Of a stretch of 26,433 nt of DNA, positions 1,545-26,182 are shown in pieces (the first letter of the stretch is position 1; each line of letters begins with the position of its first letter). The notes beneath the pieces were generated by a model, which saw nothing but the letters and a program-made list of their open reading frames with translations, did no database searches and was not told the DNA's origin. The position numbers and the translations under genes were made by a program. This DNA comes from a virus. Where the stretch lies: the IMG/VR virus record IMGVR_UViG_3300046004_000397, positions 1 through 26,433 of that record; one strand, written 5' to 3'.

Positions 1545-2024
1545 ATGGATAATGACGCGAATATTCCCACCTCCGAAACGGAAGCACTATACATAGTAGA
1601 GTGTGAACCGCAGGAGTTCATGAAACCTATTATAGCCAGAGCTAAGACTGGTCCTAAGGCCAAACAGACTGTGGATGCTATCTATTCAGGTATACAAATT
1701 GGCCGTGATAAGATAGTAGTAGACCCAGAAGAAGTATTCAAACTTGCTCAACTTGGACTTAAGAATACAGAAATAGCCAACTATCTAGGTGTAACAGAAG
1801 AAAGCATATACTACAATTTTAAAGCAGACCTAGCAAAAGGCCGTGAACACTTAAAAATTACACTTAGACGAGCTATGCTACACAATGCCATTAGTAATAA
1901 CAATGCCGCAGTACAGATATTTCTCGCAAAAAATTGCCTCGGGATGTCGGATACACCTATCAACTCAGAAGACAATGCACCACTACCTTGGGTAGAAAAC
2001 AATACCCAAGATAAGGAAGATTAA
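1545..2024 (+). CDS. terS: Terminase small subunit
   Basis: A 159-aa protein with a helix-turn-helix at about 64-92 (PEEVFKLAQLGLKNTEIANY then LGVTEESIYY), followed by a charged helix and a segment (LRRAMLHNAIS, AAVQIFLAKNCLGMSD) typical of small terminase oligomerisation regions. Small terminases recognise the packaging site and regulate the large subunit ATPase during DNA packaging. The stop overlaps the ATG of the large terminase (TAATG), so translation is probably coupled. No Shine-Dalgarno precedes 1545. An alternative start at 1620 has GGAG only three bases away. The upstream box suggests leaderless expression from 1545. Confidence 0.85.
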   Translation: MDNDANIPTSETEALYIVECEPQEFMKPIIARAKTGPKAKQTVDAIYSGIQIGRDKIVVDPEEVFKLAQLGLKNTEIANYLGVTEESIYYNFKADLAKGREHLKITLRRAMLHNAISNNNAAVQIFLAKNCLGMSDTPINSEDNAPLPWVENNTQDKED

Positions 2025-3265
2025 TGAAATTAAGTAAATGTCAGGAGCTAGTCGCCCAAGATAACCACAGATTTAAAGTAGTTATCGCTGGGCGACGCTG
2101 ACGATTTGGAAAAACCTTTTTAGCTGTACGCGAACTATGCTATCATGCTCGTATGCCTAATCAAACAGTATGGTATATTACCTCAAGCTACCGAGCAGCT
2201 CGTATGATAGCATTCAAACCTCTCAAACAACGACTACTTGAGCTTAAATGGGTCAGCAAGATCAATGAAACTACCATGGAGATAACCTTAAAGAATGGTA
2301 GTGTGATTGCTCTTAAAGGGGCTGACAATCCTGATAGTCTACGCGGTGCTAGTCTTAGTTTTGTGGTAATAGATGAAGTAGCTGAAGTAGACAGTGAACT
2401 ATTTTATGAAGTAGTTCGACCTGCATTGTCAGATCAAGAAGGCGGCGCACTGTTCATTGGTACACCCAAAGGTAAAAACAATTGGGCCTATGACTTATAT
2501 ACACACTACGAAGAGTTTCCAGAGCACTGGGCTAGTTGGCAGTTTACTACATTAGAAGGCGGATTTGTCAAGCCAGAAGAGATTGAGTCAGCTCGTAGAG
2601 ATATGAGTGAGCGGCAGTTTAATCAAGAGTTCTGTGCTACCTTTGAAACATTTGAAGGTCGTGTAGCCTGGGCATTTGATCGTGATAAGAATGTTGTTAA
2701 GATTGATAATCCAAATGTCGATGTCTTACATATAGGAATTGATTTTAACTTTCAACCTATTACAGCCGCAATACATGTTAGACACAATGATGATCTATTT
2801 CAGATAGATGAGATAGTAATGCATAGTGCTAACACACAAGAACTCTGCGATGAAATAAAAAATAGATATCCACGCAGTAAGTTATTTGCCTATCCAGACC
2901 CAGCAGGTAATCAGAATCGTACTAGCGCCGGCGGACGCACAGATCATAGTATTTTAACTAATAATGGTCTAATTGTTAAAGCACCTCGCAGACATAACCT
3001 AGTAAAAGATCGTATTAACAGTTACAATGCTAGACTATGCTCAGGAGACAATGATCGTCATCTCTGGATTGATCCAAAATGTCGACACACCATTGAATCA
3101 CTAGAGAAATTTTGCTACAAAGAGGGAACACAGGTTCCTGCCAAAGGTGATTGGGACCACATGTTCGATGCGGCATCATACTGTGTTGACTTCCTATTCC
3201 CATTAGTTAAAGAAAGAATTGAAGACCCATATGCCGCTAGCACTTGGGGACACGCACTAGCATAA
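2024..3265 (+). CDS. terL: Terminase large subunit, interrupted by in-frame TGA at 2099-2101
   Basis: The packaging motor ATPase and nuclease. From ATG 2024 the frame encodes 25 residues ending in VVIAGRR, then TGA, then CGA and FGKTFLAVREL in the same frame. Removing six bases (CGCTGA or TGACGA) would give AGRRFGKT, the usual terminase Walker A. The unbroken part from ATG 2153 is 370 aa and lacks Walker A. It contains LKGADNPDSLRG, Walker B FVVIDEVAEVD, coupling motif FIGTPKG and nuclease acidic positions in HIGIDFNF, FAYPDPAGN and DHMFDAASY. Full length would be about 413 codons. The gene is either mutated or misassembled at one point, or decoded by skipping the stop. Family identity is certain and the decoding is not. 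Confidence 0.9.
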
Positions 3266-25500: not shown

Positions 25501-25702
25501 TGCACAAGCAATATTCAAAACAGAACAAGAAGGTAAATTTACCTCAGCTGGATTTGTAGTAGAAGTAGATTTATCATTTCCTGATTATAGTCTTGGTATA
25601 GATAAAACAAGTGAGCTATTTGAATTTATTAAACAGGGCAAATGTGATGGATTTGAAATAGATCTTGGCAATAATAAGAAACAACTCATAATAAAATCAT
25701 AA
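25493..25702 (+). CDS. Hypothetical acidic protein (69 aa)
   Basis: A 69-aa protein starting MFNAQAIFKTEQEGKFTSAG then FVVEVDLSFPDYSLGIDKTS. A strand-rich N-terminus and an ELFEFIKQGKCDGFEI helix-strand end suggest a small alpha/beta fold. AAGGAG lies 8 bases before the chosen start. An ORF start at 25442 lies inside the previous gene. The stop overlaps the next start (TAATG). Not recognised. It is an early-operon gene by position. Confidence 0.6.
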   Translation: MFNAQAIFKTEQEGKFTSAGFVVEVDLSFPDYSLGIDKTSELFEFIKQGKCDGFEIDLGNNKKQLIIKS

Positions 25703-25929
25703 TGAAACTACTCTTACTATTATTACTTGCGGCCAATGCCCAAGCCGAAACAAAGTATAACCCATATACTCGAAGCTATGATACAGCACAGTCTGCAAGT
25801 CAGACAATTCAACCTCGTTATAATCCATATACTACAAAATATGAAATGACCACACGAGATAGTCAACTGGTATACAATCCTTACAATACTAGCTATACCT
25901 ATGTGCCCAAGCCAGCCAAAAAGCCTTAG
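25702..25929 (+). CDS. Secreted protein with three YNPY repeats (75 aa)
   Basis: A 75-aa protein with a Sec signal peptide (MKLLLLLLLAANAQA, probable cleavage after AQA) and then three similar repeats: YNPYTRSYDTA, YNPYTTKYEMT and YNPYNTSYTYV. The mature part has no Cys and ends in a basic PKPAKKP. Such tandem Tyr/Pro/Asn repeats occur in some bacterial secreted proteins. Exported phage proteins of the early region often act in envelope changes or superinfection exclusion, but here the job is unknown. Coupled to the gene before it by TAATG, and overlapping the next ORF by 29 bases. Confidence 0.6.
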   Translation: MKLLLLLLLAANAQAETKYNPYTRSYDTAQSASQTIQPRYNPYTTKYEMTTRDSQLVYNPYNTSYTYVPKPAKKP

Positions 25930-26182
25930 TTATAGTCTAGACTATCCAGCCGAGCTTTGGGTTACCTATGCTAACCCAGCTATATCTGCCATTGCTGAAT
26001 TAAGAAAGCACAGTCAGGAACTAGATGACATGCTGGCTAACAGTCTAACCTACACTTGGACTACCACTTGGCAGACTAATCAAAACCTAGTGAGACTGGT
26101 AATCTACATTGAGTTTACTGAAGAACAGCTCAGTTGGATGTTACTCAAATACCCACAAAATAAACGAGTGGTTGACATCTAA
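25901..26182 (+). CDS. Hypothetical protein (93 aa)
   Basis: A 93-aa protein starting MCPSQPKSLSYSLDYPAELW then VTYANPAISAIAELRKHSQE. A helix with a coiled-coil look (DDMLANSLTYTWTTTWQTNQ) and a C-terminal helix (FTEEQLSWMLLKYPQNKR) follow. It overlaps the end of the YNPY gene by 29 bases in another frame and has no visible ribosome site, so the true start is uncertain. The stop lies inside the next promoter. No function is recognised. It would be co-expressed with its early-operon neighbours. Confidence 0.5.
   Translation: MCPSQPKSLSYSLDYPAELWVTYANPAISAIAELRKHSQELDDMLANSLTYTWTTTWQTNQNLVRLVIYIEFTEEQLSWMLLKYPQNKRVVDI

Follow-up and report, generated by a model that had tools for sequence, protein, structure and literature searches.

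Organization of the terL Locus

The stretch of DNA analyzed here (hereafter, the window) covers one IMG/VR virus record from end to end, 26,433 bases. Its terminase genes, terS and terL, overlap at the terS TAA and the terL ATG; features of the locus are collected in Table 1. The reading frame of terL was checked and runs GCT GGG CGA CGC TGA CGA TTT GGA AAA ACC at the site of interest, which bears out the claim of the first-pass annotation that an in-frame TGA (2099-2101) and six extra bases interrupt the Walker A motif. When six bases are dropped, the Walker A sequence AGRRFGKT is restored. Of 170 relatives retrieved by homology, 76 have this P-loop, more than any other; most of the rest are of the xGRR[F/W/L]GK[T/S] type, and the length of the loop is invariant in 160 unbroken relatives. 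Downstream of the TGA, terL is open to its TAA and is otherwise intact. The part downstream of the break alone scores 39.8 bits with the Terminase_6N profile (cut-off 22), and the product expected if the ribosome hopped over the six bases scores 60.6 bits. The gene qualifies as a terminase large subunit by profile and by Walker A, the latter being complete in the hop product only. Gene callers will report phages of this kind with a truncated TerL.

Table 1. Features of the terS-terL region of the window.
Feature	Position	Strand	Basis or remark
terS, terminase small subunit gene	1545..2024	+	PHROG phrog_309 match, E 5.7e-6
terL, whole	2024-3265	+	ATG 2024; TAA 3263-3265
terL first part, 25 codons, MKLSKCQELVAQDNHRFKVVIAGRR, ends at take-off codon	2024..2098	+	in frame with rest of terL; conserved in carriers
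Internal Shine-Dalgarno-like AGGAG, 3 nt before hairpin	2043..2047	+	invariant in alignment A1
Hairpin 5′ arm, GTCGCCCA	2051..2058	+	folds with 2089-2096
Inner stem 5′ arm, GATAAC, pairs with GTTATC at 2081-2086	2060..2065	+	same register in L018
Hairpin 3′ arm, TGGGCGAC; last base is first base of take-off codon	2089..2096	+	folding
Inferred take-off codon CGC (Arg)	2096..2098	+	break position compared with 160 unbroken relatives
In-frame UGA, the gap	2099..2101	+	reading frame of terL
Inferred landing codon CGA	2102..2104	+	re-pairing here gives AGRRFGKT; CGA also in L018, L101
terL second part, from TTT (FGKT...), 386 codons and stop	2105..3265	+	PF03237 Terminase_6N; phrog_2 terminase large subunit

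Outside this site, TGA is used normally in the window: it terminates two other genes, and the main ORFs, about 8,000 codons in all, contain no second TGA in frame. Reassignment of TGA was set aside on these grounds. A search of the window for tRNA genes found none, and a suppressor tRNA encoded by the contig was set aside as well.

Breaks at the Same Site in Related Phages

The comparison of homologous terL genes that the first-pass annotation had proposed was carried out, and the break proved common to several of them. Two IMG/VR contigs from other samples (L016 and L017) have 94% identical DNA and the same TGA. A degenerate scan retrieved L018 and L020, which carry the same CGC TGA CGA in a TerL 54% identical to that of the window downstream of the site, and L101, with CGT TGA CGA TGG in a TerL 60% identical; L004, 82% identical over a 370-residue query, has no insert. 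Homology search yielded L169 and L175 (CGT T AGA TTC), and a hairpin-based scan yielded L278 (CGA C AGA TTT). The last scan used a pattern of GGGCGNCGN, a gap, MGN and then the remaining P-loop, and it retrieved L303/L338 (CGT TG AGC TGG), L326 (CGC T AGC TGG), L331 (CGA AT AGC TGG), L313 (CGA TGAATA CGA TTT), L334/L348 (CGT TGAATA CGC TTT) and L312/L337 (CGA AGG CGA TTC). GGGCG and an MGN landing codon were built into the pattern that retrieved lineages F-K, and both features are therefore partly imposed there.

With the window included, 18 contigs from 11 lineages carry the break. It always separates the second Arg codon of the P-loop from the F/W codon; the extra bases number 4, 5, 6 or 9, and the frame changes in five lineages. 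In 163 complete relatives, no break was found in 63,773 codons after the site.

A scan of 85,000 prokaryote genomes (GTDB) for the TGA form gave 50 matches, none of them in terL; all 50 were dismissed as chance, as were the pattern matches L015, L019 and L100, which also lie outside terL. No carrier was found among cultured phages. Cultured Pelagibacter phages whose terL annotation is overlapping or short have an unbroken AGRRFGKT-type loop. One of the cultured Pelagibacter phages, HTVC026P (L351, 1183), has terL annotated from an internal start, so that Walker A is missing in the record; its DNA is unbroken, and it is merely misannotated.

A Hairpin Precedes the Gap

The hairpin of the window has a z of -3.4 relative to dinucleotide shuffles and of -3.7 relative to synonymous recodings. 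A stable hairpin precedes the gap in 11 of 11 lineages. Its 3′ arm is made of the Gly-Arg codons before the gap, the GGGCG found there pairs with an upstream stretch in every lineage, and the end of the hairpin coincides with the take-off codon or adjoins it. Folding energy over the 75 nt that lead up to the gap is lower in carriers than in 118 relatives without a break (Mann-Whitney P 1e-7). The synonymous-recoding z ranges from -1.4 to -5.5 in carriers, being weak in two lineages (L303, -1.5; L326, -1.4), and its mean is -3.4, compared with +0.1 in the 118 unbroken relatives (P 1.5e-7). Folding energies range from -9.9 to -21.6 kcal/mol in the five unbroken relatives that contain GGGCGNCGN, and every carrier reaches -22.6 or lower. 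Folding was computed on isolated RNA. The hairpin is not a by-product of the search, since it played no part in finding the window, L018, L101 and L169. A 5′ mRNA stem-loop under selection is a criterion for bypassing, and it is met.

The 5′ arm is drawn from different codons in three groups of carriers (codons 10-12 in the group of the window, the start codon region in L313, L334 and L312), and the hairpin therefore seems to have arisen more than once. Eight of the 11 lineages have a Shine-Dalgarno-like GGAG or GGGAG just before the hairpin; L313, L334 and L312 have a GGAG next to the start codon. AGGAG occurs within the 75 nt that precede the gap in 7 of 11 lineages versus 5 of 118 unbroken relatives. 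A covariation count on five sequences was not significant by shuffling, though the given register pairs in 83% of cells versus at most 59% when slid. A constant distance of 5 nt from stem to landing codon was considered and dropped, as it holds in just 6 of 11 lineages.

Take-Off, A-Site and Landing Codons

The take-off codon is CGU, CGC or CGA in all 11 lineages, which is the codon set read by tRNA-Arg(ICG). A CGN take-off codon was imposed by the search for most lineages, not for L169. Read in the zero frame, the A site holds a stop codon in eight of the 11 lineages (P 3e-9), UGA in six and UAG in two; the other three have ATA, AGG or CAG there. A stop or slow A-site codon is also expected for bypassing, and these counts satisfy that expectation. 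UGAC, present in the window, is a leaky stop context.

Landing codons are CGA, CGC, AGA or AGC. Take-off and landing codons could be read by the same tRNA (CGN to CGA/CGC) in the window and five other lineages, a pattern that is partly imposed; in the five lineages with AGA or AGC, tRNA-Arg(ICG) pairs at two of three positions only. Re-pairing at the landing codon would give xGRR[F/W]GKT in all 11 lineages.

Selection and History of the Break

For the window and L017, dN is 0.014 and dS 0.16 in the part downstream of the gap; for the window and L278, dN is 0.09 and dS 1.21 over 23 codons before it. To judge from these substitution rates, both sides of the gap are under purifying selection, with dN/dS of about 0.1. 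Between L313 and L334, dS is 0.19 before the gap versus 1.24 after it, the pattern to be expected if there is constraint on the RNA before the gap too. Given purifying selection on both sides and no breaks elsewhere in terL, decay is excluded, and the earlier statement that the rest of the gene, open to 3265, is intact holds.

Seven changes of the trait are required on a tree of the downstream part, and six or more of them fall on well-supported branches. Broken L169 and L175 share nearly the same TerL after the site with unbroken L174 and L176, so that both kinds of allele co-occur with nearly the same downstream protein. The terL of L101 (L152) is a mosaic: identity to the window is about 60% over its first two thirds, and its C-terminal end, together with the start of the portal gene, is nearly identical. 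The seven changes, the L169/L175 and L174/L176 alleles and the C-terminal sharing of L101 point to a trait that moves or is gained repeatedly, and recombination probably helped.

A Proposed Stop Hop and Its Alternatives

We propose, with good confidence though without protein, ribosome profiling or reporter data, that terL is expressed by programmed translational bypassing, i.e., by a hairpin-driven stop hop from CGC to CGA over UGA. After translating 25 codons the ribosome would stall: its P site would contain peptidyl-tRNA-Arg on CGC, and its A site would contain UGA, whose context, UGAC, is weak. The upstream hairpin, whose 3′ arm reaches into the take-off codon, could refold only as the ribosome moves forward; it is inferred to act by refolding, with help from the Shine-Dalgarno-like AGGAG at its base, and so to propel the mRNA through. 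The peptidyl-tRNA, inferred to be tRNA-Arg(ICG), would then re-pair with CGA six bases on, and coding would restart at TTT to give AGRRFGKT. Related phages would perform an equivalent hop over 4, 5 or 9 extra nt. Resumption at a non-overlapping codon, like the translational event itself, is inferred, in this case from conservation on both sides of the gap. The first-pass annotation had suggested the hop from CGC to CGA by a single tRNA-Arg(ICG), and this hop gains support, albeit from comparative evidence only and with no protein seen, from the 5′ hairpin of the 11 lineages (usually with a Shine-Dalgarno-like sequence), from take-off codons that are always CGU, CGC or CGA and from the 4-, 5- and 9-nt variants.

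A near-cognate tRNA might instead decode UGA, and the readthrough product would be AGRR-X-RFGKT, with two extra residues in the P-loop. The UGAC context would allow this, and L312/L337 could simply be read through, since AGG replaces the stop there and would yield GRRRRFGKT. We nevertheless consider readthrough improbable: it leaves the 4- and 5-nt lineages unexplained, although they too have such a hairpin at this site, the invariant loop of 160 relatives would be lengthened, and the Pfam score is lower (54.6 versus 60.6 bits for the hop product). Readthrough or reassignment would require TGA to be used as sense elsewhere or the frame to be kept, and this is not met, as five lineages change frame. 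Just as doubtful is a ribosome that skips only the noncoding bases (UGA, U or C) and decodes the next Arg codon to give AGRRRFGKT. Such a product would still match GxxxxGKT, and eight of the 11 lineages have an Arg codon before F/W, in some cases AGA, with which tRNA-Arg(ICG) pairs only in part; yet the invariant loop would gain a residue, three lineages have AGC (Ser) at that codon, and in-frame skipping without re-pairing has no known precedent.

Removal of the extra bases from RNA or DNA before translation, by editing, splicing or excision, would likewise yield AGRRFGKT. It has no direct support and we hold it to be very improbable: gaps of 4 to 9 nt share no common sequence, the hairpin sits in translated codons, and an Rfam search for a group I/II intron or a known RNA element returned no match. 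The first-pass annotation had offered a 6-bp duplication or an assembly error as simpler options. Single metagenomic contigs can contain errors; however, independent samples contain the insert, as do terL genes whose proteins are 54-60% identical, which excludes an assembly error, and 18 contigs from different samples and 11 lineages with one site, purifying selection and no other breaks leave next to no room for an error or a nonfunctional mutant gene. Internal initiation was rejected for the window, where selection acts on the first 25 codons and the stretch from the TGA to the P-loop contains no in-frame ATG, GTG or TTG; it is not excluded in L278 and L326, where TTG/GTG is present in the new frame.

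Comparison with Known Recoding Systems

Natural bypassing is described for T4 gene 60 and some yeast mitochondria, with terL of phage phiHau3 listed as a likely case; per the same 2016 review, no natural in-frame stop hop is known (PMC5009743). In T4 gene 60, the ribosome is stalled at take-off before a stop, a 5′ stem-loop folds behind it and gives direction, and re-pairing occurs downstream (PMC11194080). The stop hop proposed for the window resembles this system in its sense take-off codon followed by a stop, its re-pairing at a codon of the same tRNA, its 5′ stem-loop refolding behind the ribosome and its Shine-Dalgarno-like help (PMC11194080; PMC5009743). It differs in that the T4 gap is 50 nt with a frame change, whereas gaps in the window family are 1-6 nt, and in that T4 strongly needs a nascent-peptide signal and a take-off stem-loop, whereas the window terL has only about 25 residues before the gap and its hairpin abuts or overlaps the take-off codon.

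The terL of the Streptomyces phage phiHau3 is likewise a bypass candidate with a short gap and a Shine-Dalgarno sequence 5′ of it (PMC5009743). In the phiHau3 genome (L353, JX182369, 2602-2640) we read GGC TTACTCC GGT AAG GAC, inside Walker A (KGWG, then KDP), so that this published candidate falls at the same site as the breaks of the window family. Its relatives align unbroken as KGWGKDP, and 1,496 of 1,515 phage records span most of the unbroken form in one place. Unlike the window, phiHau3 has Gly at take-off and landing, UUA rather than a stop, a 7-nt gap with a frame change and a TerL of an actinophage family. Synthetic stop hops in E. coli differ in being artificial constructs. The +1 frameshift of prfB (RF2) shares UGAC in the A site and a Shine-Dalgarno-like sequence 5′ of the site; it is a one-base move to an overlapping codon without a hairpin, whereas the inferred landing codon in the window family is non-overlapping.

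We are fairly confident that the breaks represent an undescribed, repeatedly evolved class of very short, hairpin-triggered hops in the TerL Walker A of many uncultured phages, including the first natural in-frame stop hops. A literature search, which did not cover most subscription journals, found no paper describing this family of terL breaks. The gap could throttle or time TerL synthesis, or it could be a tolerated insertion by which a conserved site escapes a nuclease; why such gaps settle in the catalytic loop of the packaging motor is a question that the family raises. About 11 candidate lineages offer natural variation in gap length, codons and hairpin, and, with some unbroken alleles of nearly the same gene, this makes the rules of hopping testable.

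Additional Observations

In two separate clades, L069 (~1552) and L219 (~2170) have a P-loop reading AGA CGA TTT T GGC/GGT, with one extra T and no 5′ hairpin. These may be indels and nothing more, or a site of +1 frameshifting.

In T4, the gap of gene 60 is associated with a homing endonuclease. Just before terS, at 776-1492, the window has an ORF of 238 residues without Pfam, PHROG or phage matches, which by eye resembles the DNA-binding repeats of homing endonucleases; a search for homing endonucleases near carriers gave nothing definite. The ORF is absent before terS in L017, where a stretch matching window positions 25702-26166 lies directly before terS. This arrangement suggests that the ends of the window probably belong together on a circular or permuted map, with 1-1488 (positions 3-1488 being concerned) as putative extra sequence.
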